DNA from: Myxococcus sp. RHSTA-1-4
Lineage (GTDB): Bacteria; Myxococcota; Myxococcia; Myxococcales; Myxococcaceae
Reading direction: 5' to 3'
Length of the DNA stretch: 64,000 nucleotides
Assembly: GCF_020037125.1 (NCBI RefSeq)
Contig: NZ_JAIQDG010000008.1
Span: 1 to 64,000 of the forward strand
Shown: piece after piece, positions 21,848 through 28,597 of the stretch
How positions within the stretch are numbered: position 1 is the first letter of the stretch
Layout of the letters: each line of letters starts with the position of its first letter
Notes under the pieces: generated by a model
The model's input: the letters and a program-made list of their open reading frames with translations, nothing else
What the model was told of the DNA's origin: nothing
The model's database searches: none
Position numbers and translations under genes: made by a program

Positions 21848-22729
21848 TCACGGTGGCGGCAGGGACGCGGATGCCCGCTCCACCGCCTCCGCGGGCGCCT
21901 CCACGCCGAGGAACCGGAACAGCTCCGTGGCCACCATGTGCGGCGCGTCCCACATGACGAAGTGCTTCGCGCCCGGCACCTTCACGTACCTCGCTCCGGG
22001 GATGTCCCACGCGAGCCGCTCGCCGTACTTCGGTGGCAGGAAGCCATCGTCCTCGCCCCAGAGAATCAGCACCGGCACGCCGAGGTGTCCCAGCCTCGGC
22101 GCCACCTCCAGCGTGTGGTTCGTGTTCAGCGACACCGCGTTGCGCACCAGCGACACCTTCCCCACCTCCGTCGCGTACGGCGCCAGCAGCCCCTCAATCA
22201 CCCCGTCCGGCGGCGCCCTCGCGAAGCCCCCCCTGCGCATGCCCAGCTTCAACAACCGCTGCACCGCCTCCGCCGACAGCTTTCTCACCGCGCCCGGGTG
22301 CCCGAGCTGCAGCATCAACTCCAGCGGCCACGCGTCGTAACAGACGCTGTCCATCAGACACAGCCGGCCCACCCTGCGCGGGAAGCGCACCGCGAGGTGC
22401 TGCGCCACGCCGCCCCCGACGTCGTGCGCCACCACCACCGCGTCCACCACGCCCAGCCGGTCCATCCACGCGTCCACCACCTCCGCCTGCCGCGACACCG
22501 AGCGGTCGAAGCAGTCCCGCCGGTCCGAATACCCGTAGCCCAGCAGGTCCGGCACCAGCACCCGGTGCGTCAGCGCCAGCGCCGGCGCCAGCGCGCTCCA
22601 CAGGAAGCTCCACGTCGGAATCCCGTGCAGCATCACCACCGGCCGCCCCGTGCCCAGGTCCACGTAGCTCAGGAAGCGGTCTCCCAGCTCCACCACCGCT
22701 TGCCGGGCCTGCCACTCGCGCCAGTTCAT
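21848..22729 (-). CDS. Alpha/beta-hydrolase of the haloalkane dehalogenase/epoxide hydrolase group
   Basis: A 293-residue hydrolase with motif HGIPTWSFLW (oxyanion region) and an Asp nucleophile, D103 in VVAHDVGGGVAQ. Acid Asp is in LILWGEDDGFLPP and His in AKHFVMWDAPH. An Asp nucleophile points to dehalogenase/epoxide-hydrolase chemistry, but the residue after it is Val rather than the halide-binding Trp of LinB/DhlA, which argues against a true haloalkane dehalogenase. The ATG overlaps the upstream DehI-like gene stop by 4 nt and GGAG lies 6 nt upstream. The two are co-translated. Confidence 0.85.
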   Translation of the reverse strand: MNWREWQARQAVVELGDRFLSYVDLGTGRPVVMLHGIPTWSFLWSALAPALALTHRVLVPDLLGYGYSDRRDCFDRSVSRQAEVVDAWMDRLGVVDAVVVAHDVGGGVAQHLAVRFPRRVGRLCLMDSVCYDAWPLELMLQLGHPGAVRKLSAEAVQRLLKLGMRRGGFARAPPDGVIEGLLAPYATEVGKVSLVRNAVSLNTNHTLEVAPRLGHLGVPVLILWGEDDGFLPPKYGERLAWDIPGARYVKVPGAKHFVMWDAPHMVATELFRFLGVEAPAEAVERASASLPPP

Positions 22730-23625
22730 CGCAGCTCCCCCGCGGCCACCCAGTCCGGTACCAGCCGTGACGCCGCCGGCACCGGGCGCCGCTCCACCTC
22801 CGGCGCGTCCAGCGTGAGCTGCGCCAGGTTCAACAGCAGCATCGGCAGCCGCCGCTCCAGCGCGTCCGTCACCCGGAACACCGCCGCCGCGGCCTCGCCC
22901 TGTGACGCCACCCACTCGCGGCTCAGCGTCACCCCGTACGGCAGCGCCCTCGCCTCCCGCCGCGCGGACCTTCCCAGCGCCTCGGCCGCGTGGACGAAAT
23001 CATCCTCGGCCATGCGCGGCTTCAGCCGGCTCCAGGCCGCTTCCAGGTACTCCGGCCACAGCGCCAGCGCGCGGTACTCGCCCGGCACTCCCGGCTGCCC
23101 CACCGTCTTCACGATGTCCGCGAACAGCGAGCGCAGCAGCGCGTCGTCGGGCCGCTCGGACACCCACTCCATCGCCGCCATCCTCGCGGGCGCCCCCCGC
23201 TCCACCCTTTCCGCCGCACCCGGGACGGCATTCCGCCCCACCGGCTCGGCCACCAGGGCCAGCCGCACCGCCGAGGCCAGGAGCAGCACCTTCGGCTGCA
23301 AGGCCCCATACAGCTCCAGCACGCCCCGCACGTGGAAGCGCTGGCTCGGCCCCAGCGTCACCGCGTCCCACGCCCCGAGTTCCTCCCACTCGGCCGCGGC
23401 GTCGAGCGCCTCGTCGCGCAGGCGGTCCGCCGCCTCCTCGAAGGCCCGCGTCTCCACGTTCGGCTCCATTGCTTCCCACATCGAAGCGAAGAAGCGCGGG
23501 AAGGCCGCCCACAGGCGCAGCGACACGTCCACGCCCGTCACTCGCAGTACCTGCCGCAGCTCGTGGTAGACGCGCTCGACGTCGCCGTCCGCGTCGCGCT
23601 CGCTCACCTGCTTTGCTCGGGCCAT
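22726..23625 (-). CDS. DehI-family protein (2-haloacid dehalogenase-like)
   Basis: A 299-residue helical protein with the internal duplication of DehI: VYHELRQVLRVTGVDVSLR / FPRFFASMWEAMEPNV near residues 20-57, and YRALALWPEYLEAAWSRLKP at 184-203. In DehI the catalytic water is activated by an Asp in a 'DFQALANWP' context with help from an Asn in 'GNPK'. By recollected alignment these are E183 (GEYRALALWP) and Q110 (ALQPK) here, so dehalogenase activity is doubtful. It is coupled by ATGA to the downstream alpha/beta hydrolase. Start ATG 23625 lacks a good ribosome site. Confidence 0.72.
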   Translation of the reverse strand: MARAKQVSERDADGDVERVYHELRQVLRVTGVDVSLRLWAAFPRFFASMWEAMEPNVETRAFEEAADRLRDEALDAAAEWEELGAWDAVTLGPSQRFHVRGVLELYGALQPKVLLLASAVRLALVAEPVGRNAVPGAAERVERGAPARMAAMEWVSERPDDALLRSLFADIVKTVGQPGVPGEYRALALWPEYLEAAWSRLKPRMAEDDFVHAAEALGRSARREARALPYGVTLSREWVASQGEAAAAVFRVTDALERRLPMLLLNLAQLTLDAPEVERRPVPAASRLVPDWVAAGELR

Positions 23626-24868: not shown

Positions 24869-25186
24869 ATGGACGGCGGCAACGACATTCACGGAGCGCG
24901 CATCGTCAACGTCACCCTGGCCAGCTCGCTGGGGGCCTATCTCCTGCGCACGCAGGAACTGGGCGTGGTGGAGGGCACGGTGGGCGCGCTGGTGCTCAAC
25001 CCGGCCATCCAGCCGGTGCTGGAGGCGCTGCACCACGTGCTCGCCGGCGGAGAGGTGGAGGTGCGCGTCGTGCGCGCCGGCAACCCGGACATCGTCGAGG
25101 AGCTGGGCCGGCGCGCCGCGCAGGCCACCCAGGAAGCCAACGCCCTCAACCAGGCAGCGGGCTTCTATCTCACCGGCACGGTATGA
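24869..25186 (+). CDS. Small conserved-looking protein, first gene of a four-gene coupled operon
   Basis: A 105-residue protein with alternating strands and helices: GARIVNVTLASSLGAYLLRT, then a hydrophobic ALVLNPAIQPVLEALHHVL, and a C-terminal helix AAQATQEANALNQAAGFYL. No signal peptide or TM helix is clear. GGGGGG lies about 8 nt before ATG 24869. The stop overlaps the start of the histidine kinase (ATGA), so a sensory or adaptor role for that kinase is possible. I do not recognise the family. Confidence 0.7.
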   Translation: MDGGNDIHGARIVNVTLASSLGAYLLRTQELGVVEGTVGALVLNPAIQPVLEALHHVLAGGEVEVRVVRAGNPDIVEELGRRAAQATQEANALNQAAGFYLTGTV

Positions 25187-26526
25187 GCCGGCGCAACGCC
25201 GTCACGTCGTCGTTCCGCCGCTGGACTCGCTCGCAGGACGCGGCCGAGGTGCTGGCCGCGTCCGGCCTGGGCGCGTGGCTGGTGCTCACCGTGTTCGTGG
25301 TGGGCCTGCTGGCCATGGCCGCGTGGGCACCGGGCGCGCGCCTCTTCTTCGGCATTCCCTTCGGCACCGGGCTTCTATGCGCCGCGCCCATGCTGGCCAG
25401 TGGCCTGCTCTTCTCCGCCGTCCACCGGCGCCGCCAGCGAATCGAGCCGTGGGGCTGGCTGTGGCTGGCCTTCGGCGTCGCGGCCGTGCACTTCTTCGTC
25501 GCCGCCCTCATGGCGCTGTCCGCGCTGCCGGGCGCCACCGTCGTCGCCTCCCTCCTCCTCTTCACCGCCGCCTTCCATGGCCGGCTGCACCGGGTGACGC
25601 CGCGTCAGCCCTTCCTCGCCCTGGGCACCGCGCTGGCGCTGTTCGGGGCCCTGCGGCTCCGCGAGAGCGACGAGCACCTGGCCCTCTTCGGCGTCATCGG
25701 CCCCGCCGCGCTCACCGCCGAGCTGTACCTGGGTGCCTTCGCCGTGCAGCACGACAAGGCCCGCGCGGACGCGGAGCGCCTGCGCGCCGCCGTGCACGCG
25801 CAGCTCCTGGAGCAGCAGGAGCGGGACGTGGGCCGGATGTCCCAGGCGCTGGGCGAAATCCTCGGCTACCACCATGACCTCGACAACGCCCTGCTGAGCG
25901 CGAGCAGCGCGGCGGACATGCTGACCGTCATGGGCGTGCAGCGCCACGCGCTCGCGCGCGCCGACCACGAGGAGCTGGTGAAGAAGCTCCACGACAGCCT
26001 GGCGCAAATCAAGGAGATGGTGACGGAGATACGCGCCAAGGGCCGGCGCCATGCCGGCACGGACCCGGAGCCCGTGGACCTGCCGCCGGTGCTGGAGTCG
26101 GTGCAGGCCAGCGTGGGCCTGCGCTTCCCCGACGTGGACATCCACGTCGAGGTGGAGCCCAACCCGCCGCCCCGGGTGTTGATGCGCGGCGGCGCCCCCA
26201 CGCTGCGCCGTGTGGTGGAGAACCTGGTGCTCAACGCGTGCGAGGGCGACGGCGAGCACGGCGCCGAGCAGGTGCGCATCCGCGCGCGCGTGGAGCCGCT
26301 CAGCGGCCGGCTGGAGGTCGTCATCTCCGACGACGGCCCGGGCTTCCCGGCGGACCACCTCGCCGGCCCCGCCCGGGAGCTGCACACCACCAAGCCCCAG
26401 GGCACCGGCCTGGGCCTCTACACCAGCGAGTGCCTGCTGCGCGCCAGCGGCGGCATGTTGCACCGGCAGAACGCGCCCGGCGGCGGCGCCCTGCTGCGCG
26501 TGGTCCTTCCCCGGGAGTACCCATGA
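25183..26526 (+). CDS. Six-TM sensor histidine kinase
   Basis: A 447-residue kinase. Six hydrophobic segments at about residues 28-190 form a membrane sensor with little extramembrane sequence. A coiled linker leads to phospho-acceptor H231 in GYHHDLDNALLS. The ATPase domain has ENLVLNACEG, DDGPGFPAD and GTGLGLYTS. No receiver domain or regulator is encoded nearby, so its partner is elsewhere. The four-nt overlaps with both neighbours show co-translation with a putative isoprenoid synthase and methyltransferase, suggesting it senses a membrane or lipid signal linked to them (inference). Confidence 0.85.
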   Translation: MSRRNAVTSSFRRWTRSQDAAEVLAASGLGAWLVLTVFVVGLLAMAAWAPGARLFFGIPFGTGLLCAAPMLASGLLFSAVHRRRQRIEPWGWLWLAFGVAAVHFFVAALMALSALPGATVVASLLLFTAAFHGRLHRVTPRQPFLALGTALALFGALRLRESDEHLALFGVIGPAALTAELYLGAFAVQHDKARADAERLRAAVHAQLLEQQERDVGRMSQALGEILGYHHDLDNALLSASSAADMLTVMGVQRHALARADHEELVKKLHDSLAQIKEMVTEIRAKGRRHAGTDPEPVDLPPVLESVQASVGLRFPDVDIHVEVEPNPPPRVLMRGGAPTLRRVVENLVLNACEGDGEHGAEQVRIRARVEPLSGRLEVVISDDGPGFPADHLAGPARELHTTKPQGTGLGLYTSECLLRASGGMLHRQNAPGGGALLRVVLPREYP

Positions 26527-27260
26527 GCGCCGGAGCCCTCTACCAGGAAGCGCTGCGGGTGCTCCGCCGCATGGAGCTGCCGGAGGTGTCCGAGCGGGAC
26601 GTGCTCGCCACGCTGGAGGCGGGCCAGCCCGGGCCGCTGTCCCTCTTCTACGAGGCGGGCGCGGAGGCCGGCCTGCCCCGGCGGGTGCTGCTCACGCGCG
26701 GCACCGGACTCTTCTTCAGCTTCTGCGCGGGCAACCTCGCGGACGACCTCATCGACGGCGACTGCACCTACCACGCGCAGCCCCTCCGGGTGGGGCCCTT
26801 CGTACAGTTCCTCCTGCAGAACCTGGCCTTCGCCACGCTGGCGGGCGAGGACGCCCAGGTGCCGGCGCCGGTGCTGTCGGAGGCCACGCGCACGCTGGCG
26901 CTCGCGGCCGGGCCGCAGGCGCTGGAGGTGCGCGCCCGCCAGTGGACGGCCCCCCTGTTCCGCCAGGTCGCCGAGGGCATCGCCGGCCAGCAGTGGGAGG
27001 CGTACCTGCGCGTGCTGTGGGCGGGCACGGTGCTGGAGCCACGCGCCGCGGAGGCCGGCCGCGCGCTGGGGGTGGCCGCGCACGTGGTGGAGGACATCCG
27101 CTCGCGCGACGTGCGCTTCACCAGCATGCCGCCCGAGGACCGCGACGTGGTGGTGGGCTGGGCCCGCGGCGCCGTGCAGGCGCTGCGCCGGCACGACCTG
27201 CGGTGCCTGGACGCGGCGCTGCGCCGCATCGAACCGATTCTCCCGGAGGTGGAGTCATGA
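26523..27260 (+). CDS. Class I isoprenoid synthase-like protein
   Basis: A 245-residue all-alpha protein. DDLID at 74-78 (GNLADDLIDGD) matches the first Asp-rich Mg2+/diphosphate motif DDxxD, and EDIRSRD at 190-196 sits where prenyl synthases have the second motif. The helices between fit the fold. It is shorter than normal polyprenyl synthases (about 300-340) and lacks an obvious substrate Lys/Arg GKxxR near the N-terminus, so activity and chain length are unclear. It may be a terpene synthase-like or regulatory paralogue. ATGA overlaps join it to the kinase and the methyltransferase. Confidence 0.6.
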   Translation: MSAGALYQEALRVLRRMELPEVSERDVLATLEAGQPGPLSLFYEAGAEAGLPRRVLLTRGTGLFFSFCAGNLADDLIDGDCTYHAQPLRVGPFVQFLLQNLAFATLAGEDAQVPAPVLSEATRTLALAAGPQALEVRARQWTAPLFRQVAEGIAGQQWEAYLRVLWAGTVLEPRAAEAGRALGVAAHVVEDIRSRDVRFTSMPPEDRDVVVGWARGAVQALRRHDLRCLDAALRRIEPILPEVES

Positions 27261-28135
27261 GGGCCGAAGCCCCGAAGACCGAGGCGTGGCGCGACGAGGT
27301 GACCGGGTACTACGAGGAGAAGACGGAGCGGATTCTCCGCCGCTACGGCCCCGGGCCGCGCGTGCACTACCACTCCGGGCTGGTGGACGCGGTGCCTCCG
27401 CCGGGCGGGCCGGAGGAGCAGGTGCGCGCCCAGGTGCACGCCGCCCAGGAGTCACTGCTGGCGGAGCTGGCGCGCGCGGTGGGCCGCTTCCCGGACGGCG
27501 GTGACGTGCTGGACGTGGGCTGCGGCCTGGGCGGCGGCGCGCTCTACTGGGCCATGGAGCACCACGCGCGGGTGACGGCGGTGACGAACGTGCCCTCGCA
27601 CGTGGAGCTGGCGCGGAGCTTCGCGGAGGCCGCGGGCGTGGGCTCGCGGGTGAGGCCGCTGCTGTGTGACGCGCTGGCGGTGCCGGGCCGCGCCTGCTTC
27701 GACGCGGTGGTGGCGGTGGAGAGCGCGTGCTACCTGCCGCGCACCGACTGGTTCCGCCGCGTGCGCGCGCTGCTCAAGCCCCGGGGCGTGCTGGCCATCG
27801 CCGACTGCTTCCTCGGGAGGCCGGAGCTGGCCGGGCCCTTCGACCGGTACTGGCGCACGTGCATCGGCACGCTCGACGAATACCTGTCCGCCGCGCACGA
27901 CGCGGGACTGGAACTGGAGGTGCGCGACGACGTGTCCTCGCGCGTGGTGGGCTTCTGGTCCCTCACGCTGGAGCTGATGGCGCACGAGCGGGCGGCCGCC
28001 AGCGGCCCGCACCCGCCGCGCGCCCTCTCCGTGGCTGGCCGCGGCGAGTCCAGCCGCGAGCACCTGCGGCTCCAGCAGGCGCTGATGGACGGCGGGCTGG
28101 AGTACGGCCTGCTCGTGCTGCGCCGCGTGGGCTGA
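27257..28135 (+). CDS. SAM methyltransferase related to isoprenoid/small-molecule methyltransferases
   Basis: A 292-residue class I methyltransferase. Motif I VLDVGCGLGGGALYWA is at 84-99. AVTNVPSHVELAR, FDAVVAVESACYLP and LKPRGVLAIADCF follow. The N-terminal EVTGYYEEKTERILRRYG… HYHSG and the overall order resemble geranyl diphosphate C-methyltransferases and gamma-tocopherol methyltransferases at a distance. Since the upstream partner looks like an isoprenoid synthase, a prenyl substrate is a reasonable guess. The start overlaps the upstream stop (ATGA). It is the last gene of the operon. 147 bp follow before the next gene. Confidence 0.8.
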   Translation: MRAEAPKTEAWRDEVTGYYEEKTERILRRYGPGPRVHYHSGLVDAVPPPGGPEEQVRAQVHAAQESLLAELARAVGRFPDGGDVLDVGCGLGGGALYWAMEHHARVTAVTNVPSHVELARSFAEAAGVGSRVRPLLCDALAVPGRACFDAVVAVESACYLPRTDWFRRVRALLKPRGVLAIADCFLGRPELAGPFDRYWRTCIGTLDEYLSAAHDAGLELEVRDDVSSRVVGFWSLTLELMAHERAAASGPHPPRALSVAGRGESSREHLRLQQALMDGGLEYGLLVLRRVG

Positions 28136-28282: not shown

Positions 28283-28597
28283 ATGAAGGCACTCAAGCAT
28301 TGGATGGTGCTCGGGGCCGCCGCGGCGGCCATGACGGTGACGGGATGCCAGAACCGCGGGCAGGAGGAAGGCACCGGCGGCGCGGGCATGGAGGGCACCG
28401 AGGGCACCGAAACCCAGGGCACGGGCGGCGCCGGCCAGATGATGGGCACCGACGCGGGCACCGGCGGCGCCGGCATGGGCACGGACGCGGGCACTGGCGG
28501 CTCCGGCGTGCTGCAGCAGGATGAGACGGGTGGCACGGGCGCCATCGAAGACGAGACGGAGCCCGGCGCGGGCACCACGGAGCAGCCCCAGCAGTAA
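28283..28597 (+). CDS. Gly/Thr-rich low-complexity lipoprotein
   Basis: A 104-residue lipoprotein with signal MKALKHWMVLGAAAAAMTVTGC (lipidated C22). The mature part is built of degenerate repeats of GTGGAG, MGTDAGTGGAG and EGTEGT, and ends in an acidic tail with EPGAGTTEQPQQ. No fold is expected. It is likely a disordered envelope peptide. GGAGGT 7 nt before the ATG supports the start. Repeat slippage could vary its length between strains. Confidence 0.8.
   Translation: MKALKHWMVLGAAAAAMTVTGCQNRGQEEGTGGAGMEGTEGTETQGTGGAGQMMGTDAGTGGAGMGTDAGTGGSGVLQQDETGGTGAIEDETEPGAGTTEQPQQ

Follow-up and report, generated by a model that had tools for sequence, protein, structure and literature searches.

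A four-gene operon of Myxococcus sp. RHSTA-1-4 that places a putative terpenoid enzyme pair beside a membrane histidine kinase

Described systems and the layout of the operon

Two described prenyl-diphosphate C6-methyltransferases offer a close comparison for part of the locus analysed here, namely the farnesyl diphosphate (FPP) enzyme C6-FPP-MT of Streptomyces varsoviensis (PDB entry 9tb4) and BezA, which methylates geranyl diphosphate (GPP; 7fbh, 7fbo). In C6-FPP-MT, Glu165 is reported to be the catalytic base, to which His194 is hydrogen-bonded, and Phe243-Trp244 to position the C6-C7 double bond (PMC12929941). The same source reports that active sites were conserved among 501 related methyltransferases and that each of the terpene synthases treated there that act on C6-methyl-FPP had an adjacent methyltransferase gene, and it urges the mining of uncharacterised loci (PMC12929941). 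Here we describe an operon of four genes, A to D, in the first 64,000 nucleotides of contig NZ_JAIQDG010000008.1 of Myxococcus sp. RHSTA-1-4 (this whole stretch is called the window; ~73% GC, from a genome of 11.2 megabases). A relative of these methyltransferases (gene D) follows a small protein (A), a membrane histidine kinase (B) and a protein with a predicted isoprenyl diphosphate synthase fold (C) (Table 1). Gene D keeps Glu155, Phe233, Trp234, Tyr30 and an aromatic residue at position 38, whereas Cys184 and Phe195 set it apart from C6-FPP-MT and BezA, as do its neighbour, which is no canonical terpene synthase, and the kinase in its operon.

Gene C invites comparison with the trans-isoprenyl diphosphate synthases (PF00348), with which it shares a near-whole-chain predicted fold (Z ~23), the first Asp-rich motif and a weak but specific sequence link, whereas it lacks the motifs of the isopentenyl diphosphate (IPP) site and the second DDxxD motif. 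It also resembles the sandfly enzyme LlTPS2, an isoprenyl-synthase-derived terpene synthase, in the substitution of IPP-binding residues, which is reported to be the criterion that tells the terpene synthases of insects apart from isoprenyl diphosphate synthases (PMC12376265). LlTPS2 is reported to keep both Asp-rich motifs (PMC12376265), whereas the second is changed in gene C, which is moreover shorter, bacterial, and paired or fused with a methyltransferase. Terpene synthases derived from isoprenyl synthases have been reported for fungi (PMC7484799) and termites (PMC13143122) too. Gene C presumably arose separately from the terpene synthases of insects.

The genes cqsA and cqsS are adjacent, and CqsS has a six-helix membrane topology. 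In this system an enzyme makes a small hydrophobic signal that is reported to be bound by the membrane part of the kinase (PMC3310172), a layout of enzyme beside kinase that the operon resembles, although the chemistry is unrelated, the ligand of B is putative, and B has no fused receiver. The conservons offer a second likeness, as in these an accessory protein lies beside a kinase without a sensory domain; CvnE, a cytochrome P450 and thus of enzyme type, and CvnF, a GAF protein, are proposed to gate such kinases (PMC13343842). However, conservons come from a different phylum and their accessory folds differ, and a conservon identity was rejected because no roadblock or small GTPase protein was found among the Pfam matches of nine window proteins (A to D and five flanking genes), the scan being limited to the window. 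No described system of this shape, a kinase with such an enzyme pair, was found among the open-access papers listed in literature searches, which is weak evidence of absence.

As the initial annotation had proposed, the four genes form an operon in which the A/B, B/C and C/D junctions are each a four-nucleotide (4-nt) overlap. Overlaps of this kind are common in bacteria; they suggest that the genes are co-transcribed and may be coupled in translation, and the fixed stoichiometry that had been read from them does not follow. In the 30 loci with the best matches (L001-L030; L001 is that of the window), 4-nt overlaps join B to C and C to D in 30/30 each, and A to B in 21 of the 29 in which A was found, with start codons picked by script. 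A chance grouping of the genes was rejected because the order B-C-D is intact in all 30. In loci L031-L050, which come partly from the same genomes, the overlap is present at B/C in 15/17, at C/D in 9/11 (the remaining two are fusions) and at A/B in 11/17. The ratio of nonsynonymous to synonymous substitution rates (dN/dS) is 0.24-0.39 for B, C and D relative to the near relatives L002, L003, L004 and L006, and 0.61 for A relative to L042, which suggests that A evolves faster.

Table 1. Positions of the operon, its genes, conserved sites and neighbouring genes within the window (aa, amino acids; rows, rows of the alignment).
Feature	Position	Strand	Description
Operon A-D	24869-28135	+	four genes
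Gene A	24869-25186	+	105 aa, small protein without known family
Gene B	25183-26526	+	447 aa, membrane sensor histidine kinase
His231 of B, in HHDLDN	25873-25875	+	probable phospho-acceptor, from alignment to the H-D-x-x-N pattern
Gene C	26523-27260	+	245 aa, predicted isoprenyl-diphosphate-synthase fold, no Pfam family
First Asp-rich motif of C, D74-D75-L-I-D78-G79-D80	26742-26762	+	DDxxD conserved
Second acidic motif of C, E190-D191-I-R-S-R-D196-V-R198	27090-27116	+	site of the synthases' second Asp-rich motif
Gene D	27257-28135	+	292 aa, prenyl-diphosphate C6-methyltransferase relative
Glu155 of D	27719-27721	+	equivalent of catalytic base Glu165 of C6-FPP-MT; Glu in 19/19 rows
Phe233-Trp234 of D	27953-27958	+	equivalent of Phe243-Trp244 of C6-FPP-MT; Phe, Trp in 19/19 rows
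Gene directly downstream of D	28283-28597		small lipoprotein-like product with Gly-rich (GTGGSG-like) repeats
Hydrolase and DehI-like pair	21848-23625	-	alpha/beta hydrolase and DehI-like protein (PF10778, 72 bits), overlapping genes

The methyltransferase relative and its synthase-like neighbour

Gene D is homologous to the two described C6-methyltransferases over essentially its full length (residues 13-287 against 9tb4 and 15-236 against BezA). A phmmer search of PDB sequences returned C6-FPP-MT with an expectation value (E) of 7e-52 and BezA with 1.7e-49, the next match being at 6e-14, and the same two led when D was used as a profile (8.6e-74 and 1.6e-69, next 7.5e-22). By sequence, D is a new member of this known family, in agreement with the resemblance to prenyl-diphosphate methyltransferases pointed out in the initial annotation.

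Active-site residues named for C6-FPP-MT (PMC12929941) were mapped onto D through the alignments from the PDB sequence search. Tyr37, Phe45 and Thr211 of C6-FPP-MT correspond to Y30, Y38 and T201, and the changed positions Met47, Gln192 and Tyr209 to S40, A182 and W199. The catalytic Glu and the Phe-Trp platform are both present in D (Table 1), and the equivalents of F233-W234 also occur in 4/4 D copies from the genus g6, which we take to be Corallococcus. His194 is replaced by C184 in 19/19 rows; since BezA has Val at this position in the search alignment, the His separates subtypes rather than the family. At the position of Ile205 in C6-FPP-MT and Trp210 in BezA, D has F195, a residue intermediate between the FPP type and the GPP type, and the sequence thus does not tell the substrate length of D.

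A search for the terpene synthase family PF19086, the only terpene synthase family searched, found no match in the window's genome, and PF19086 occurs in 62/142 genomes of the order. With no PF19086 protein in the genome, the candidate partner closest at hand for D is gene C, which alone in the operon encodes a protein of synthase fold. Within Myxococcus and Pyxidicoccus (together labelled g1), three sampled genomes (G000, G109, and G120) have no PF19086 match and the other 24 have at least two each.

Any matches of the gene C sequence in Pfam, NCBIfam, PHROGs and PDB were chance ones, and no PF00348 match at E 1 was found in any of the 34 family members, which also stay below the Pfam gathering score. 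The AlphaFold2 model of C, made from an input alignment of 34 homologues, is all-helical, with a predicted local distance difference test score (pLDDT) of 95.0 and a predicted template modelling score of 0.91. All of the 50 PDB matches listed by Foldseek are prenyl diphosphate synthases or prenyltransferases, including FPP synthase at E 1e-4, and these solved structures align over 226-240 of the 245 residues. VIA-align gave Z 23.8 against 4wk5 (232 residues, root-mean-square deviation 2.6 Å) and Z 23.2 against FPP synthase 1rqj (239 residues, 2.7 Å), well above the 13-14 that, according to the tool's note, helical models reach when they lack a clear match. The model thus has the all-alpha trans-isoprenyl diphosphate synthase fold, and the likeness to class I isoprenoid synthases in the initial annotation is borne out. 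The protein had also been called short, which holds for its 245 residues; however, it is not merely short, as it aligns almost throughout and no longer has the motifs that bind IPP.

A profile of 15 diverse C proteins was searched against 195 genomes of the phylum and gave strong matches in 50 genomes and weak matches in 11 further places (E 1e-5 to 0.0096). Eight of the 11 are PF00348 proteins (E 5e-46 to 5e-55), as are all five of those below E 0.001; the other three, a TPR protein (E 0.003), an Hsp70-like protein (0.0066), and a histidine kinase (0.0096), are unrelated. By eye, several of the cross-hit synthases have a first motif DDxQDGD or DDxxDG, like the DDLIDGD of gene C, followed by RRG, which gene C does not have. 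Alignment of the C family by hhalign to 23 canonical synthases of the same order (taken from 29 loci, six of which failed the selecting pattern) gave a probability of 34-40% in a sensible register, and serves to place the motifs, not to prove kinship. Taken together, the predicted fold and the profile cross-hits to PF00348 indicate that gene C is of isoprenyl diphosphate synthase descent, and by Pfam, NCBIfam, and PHROGs it forms an undescribed family inside a known superfamily.

Two motifs noticed in the initial annotation, DDLID (residues 74-78 of C) and EDIRSRD (residues 190-196), are where it had placed them, and their Asp residues rank with the best-conserved positions of the family. D74, D75, and D78 are each found in 32/34 rows, the exceptions being the two Citreicoccus-genus rows (A1 alignment), and D191 and R198 are found in 34/34 and D196 in 31/34. 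Thirteen columns (L11, G50, D74, D75, D78, G79, Q95, E135, W141, G155, D191, D196, and R198) are invariant in an alignment of 15 rows, which leaves out the Citreicoccus-genus rows and in which identity to the window's protein falls to 23% and 16% for the two most distant members. The second motif, with the family form (E)D(I/L)x(S/T)xDxR, pairs with the DDxxD of the canonical synthases in the hhalign alignment.

The motifs expected on the IPP side are missing from 41 C rows, in which L038 is counted twice; L033, which is truncated, does not pass the position filter of the pattern although it contains the first motif. KT occurs in 0/41 C rows versus 19/23 canonical synthases, RR after the first motif in 1/41 versus 18/23, and the second DDxxD in 0/41 versus 17/23 with the same pattern; GK[RK] before the first motif occurs in 0/41 C rows, this being the pattern that selected the 23 canonical synthases and hence no control. 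Gene C therefore combines a predicted synthase fold with substituted IPP-binding motifs. The loss of these motifs points to the handling of a single allylic diphosphate, by an enzyme or a binding protein, rather than to chain elongation, and gene C is probably a synthase-derived, terpene-synthase-like enzyme. A simple chain elongase was rejected on the loss of the IPP-site motifs. More broadly, C might still be a chain-elongating prenyl diphosphate synthase or a non-catalytic subunit that supplies the substrate of D, as its fold and family origin would allow; however, with GK[RK], RR, KT, and the second DDxxD missing from the family and three PF00348 genes above the Pfam cut-off elsewhere in the genome, we consider this very improbable.

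Distribution and variants of the locus

Gene C was found in 48/145 genomes of the order (9/46 genera) and gene D, at E 1e-25, in 55/145 (7/46 genera), and the operon is spread over Myxococcaceae and reaches a second family. The co-occurrence on which the initial annotation had staked its proposal holds, as all four genes are found together outside the genus and in the second family (L031). The order A-B-C-D is seen in g1, in the genus of Hyalangium versicolor (g8) and in the genus labelled g9, with A not found in one g1 genome (G112), and L107 has receiver-A-B-C-D. C and D are fused into a single open reading frame of 522-523 aa in L031, of another family, where the fusion follows A-B, and in L038, where it precedes peroxidase-A-B.

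Other loci have part of the set. Six loci of the genus g3, which includes two Archangium species, and L037 have peroxidase-receiver-A-B-C without D, and L032 has A-B-C up to the contig end. Two loci of the genus g5, which includes Citreicoccus inhibens, have C-D without A and B, and four g6 loci that were read have B-D with 4-nt overlaps, where A and C were not found (16 g6 genomes have D). Metagenome contigs carry A-C-D (L102) or A-C (L104 and L105). At L084, from the second family of the order, and L085, from another order of the class, a receiver, A, B, and a distant C are present. The receiver-A-kinase-C core without D, which thus reaches another order, is the oldest core seen.

A gene for a Dyp-type peroxidase (PF20628) lies upstream of A at L036:5776-7015, L038:4066-4917, and L042:5884-6609, with E 1e-22 in two of the loci; the L042 copy is below the cut-off and does not have the GFRDG motif. 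In the Archangium loci, the receiver gene, whose PF00072 match is below the cut-off, sits between the peroxidase and A. Neither peroxidase nor receiver genes adjoin A-D in the window. These variants bear on the possibility that the locus is an ordinary small homoterpene operon with its own regulator, in which B would control expression in answer to a cue that has nothing to do with the product, having no part in making or sensing it. A peroxidase upstream of A in Archangium and L038 would fit tailoring of a product, and the methyltransferase gene reported beside each of the C6-methyl-FPP-using synthases treated in one study (PMC12929941) also speaks for such an operon. However, A-B-C without D in Archangium, B-D without C in g6, and A-C without B in L104 and L105 would be odd for a dispensable regulator, and we regard such an operon as unlikely.

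Changes in C and D appear to be linked. In the two g5 loci, which have neither A nor B, the DDxxD of C and a pocket segment of D are both lost. In the four g6 loci without A and C, D keeps Glu155 and Phe-Trp and has Cys in place of Y38 and Ser in place of F195. This linked decay, seen in few genomes, suggests that the pocket of D needs C. The reverse dependence fails, as the motifs of C are intact in Archangium without D.

Among named records, the closest to gene C is from Pyxidicoccus fallax (92% identity), and matches above 70% identity are titled Pyxidicoccus, Myxococcus, or Hyalangium, plus one Comamonas. Gene C is also present in M. xanthus strain AM003 (L093), a named strain in which knock-outs would therefore be feasible. 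The Comamonas sp. record (L088, BNCN01000009.1) contains a myxobacterial C gene with 80% identity, as does a metagenome-assembled genome titled Klebsiella pneumoniae (L104, CAMBFS010000003.1) with 53% identity, and both are probably misnamed or contaminated assemblies.

Two neighbours of the operon (Table 1) recur elsewhere. Gly-rich proteins resembling the product encoded directly downstream of D come after D in L034, L035, L041, L042, L048, and L050. Homologues of the alpha/beta hydrolase and DehI-like pair are also found near the operon in L037, L039, L043, L044, L046, L047, and L049 (clusters 3 and 8).

The kinase, its small partner and readings of the operon

Gene B encodes a histidine kinase with an HATPase_c domain (PF02518, 59 bits, E 7e-16, above the cut-off) in which the N, G1, and G2 boxes are intact, as in histidine kinases, while a HisKA match stays under its cut-off (10.7 bits versus 26.9). 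The N-terminal part is hydrophobic over residues ~29-184, and the hydropathy script calls four peaks, one of which is long enough for two helices. The "6-TM kinase" of the initial annotation is thereby upheld as a kinase, and its six transmembrane helices are plausible but not established. Aligned relatives of B have five to nine hydropathy peaks, a few of them beyond the N-terminal part. By hydropathy, no loop between the peaks of B has the apparent length of a sensory domain.

Gene A has no match below E 0.08 in Pfam, NCBIfam, or PHROG. Its model (pLDDT 76.6) consists of three helices and has no PDB fold match at E 0.001; two matches to de novo designed bundles (E 0.005-0.008) were discarded as matches of composition. 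Homologues of A are found in 45/195 genomes of the phylum (E 0.001), and G32, H55, G60, G61, and L79 are invariant in a 22-row alignment. Gene A probably encodes a small partner of B and/or C.

The reading that we favour, tentatively and with somewhat less than even confidence, is that the operon couples a terpenoid enzyme pair (C and D) to a membrane histidine kinase that senses a ligand. We infer that D would use S-adenosylmethionine (SAM) to methylate C6 of an allylic prenyl diphosphate, either GPP or FPP, and that C, which keeps the metal-diphosphate motif without the IPP site, would ionise the methylated allylic diphosphate to give a small homoterpene hydrocarbon or alcohol. In relatives without D, C would take an unmethylated allylic diphosphate. 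Judged by its hydropathy, B has no large domain outside the cytoplasm; it may sense a membrane-soluble ligand, most simply the product of C and D, and would signal by phosphotransfer, in other lineages to the adjacent receiver protein, while A would assist B and/or C. Action of D before C, with the outcome read by B, would be the most economical reading. The circuit making or sensing a methylated isoprenoid that the initial annotation put forward is thus plausible, and its interpretation as a whole is partly supported.

Several observations weigh against this reading. At 245 aa, gene C is below the usual length of a terpene synthase, and its second motif matches neither the canonical DDxxD pattern nor the NSE pattern. 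Gene D was found at E 1e-25 in none of the six sampled Archangium genomes and was not found at the L037, L084, and L085 loci, and the acidic motifs of C are intact in all of these loci; C would therefore be independent of D, and methylation would not be the core function. Conversely, gene C is absent from the g6 genomes, in which B and D remain. In an alignment of B with 47 rows from 43 genomes, the acceptor His is kept in 32/43 genomes and lost in 11/43. The kinases without it have Gln, Glu, or Asn at the aligned position and the ATP boxes remain in most; in g6, the His is lost in one of the two kinases aligned. The Archangium receiver has, by eye, Ala at the expected phospho-Asp. Lastly, C and D of g5 have a dN/dS of 0.18 and 0.12 (two genomes) despite their lost key motifs, so that the motif-less proteins may have a new role.

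The main rival stays in play because the older core has no D and because some lineages have lost the acceptor His. In this rival, C, and later D, would be sensory subunits derived from enzymes, whose binding of a prenyl diphosphate or of SAM gates the catalytic domain of kinase B. Besides the oldest core of receiver, A, kinase, and C having no D, the non-canonical second motif of C would suit such a subunit, as would the g6 loci, where B and D stay coupled by a 4-nt overlap without C and the pocket of D is altered. The hydropathy of B is also like that of the conservon kinases with accessory proteins (PMC13343842) in showing no large extracytoplasmic domain. On the other hand, binding alone needs less than what is conserved, as the metal-diphosphate Asp residues of C are invariant and D keeps Glu155 and Phe-Trp, and the C-D fusion suggests sequential chemistry. 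The conservon parallel is further loosened by the nine window proteins having no roadblock or GTPase protein among them, and by the in vitro modulation of a kinase being reported there for CvnF8, a GAF protein, and not for an enzyme-type accessory protein (PMC13343842). We consider sensory subunits a serious but rather unlikely explanation.

Returning to the favoured coupling of an enzyme pair to a sensing kinase, a more specific form of it may be considered. Myxobacteria are predatory soil bacteria, and Myxococcus development and predation depend on chemical signals. A C6-methylated homoterpene made by C and D might be a membrane-soluble autoinducer or developmental signal that is read by B, and the C family might be the start of a bacterial lineage of terpene synthases that evolved from isoprenyl synthases independently of the insect and fungal ones, although we hold this bolder version to be doubtful. 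The receiver-A-kinase-C core would then be the ancestral, unmethylated version. Together with its methyltransferase partner, gene C is a candidate, open to direct testing, for another way in which bacteria make homoterpenes, besides the one already described. If the reading is true, the tie to the kinase would offer in Myxococcus a compact system, accessible to genetics, in which a bacterium senses a terpenoid of its own making.

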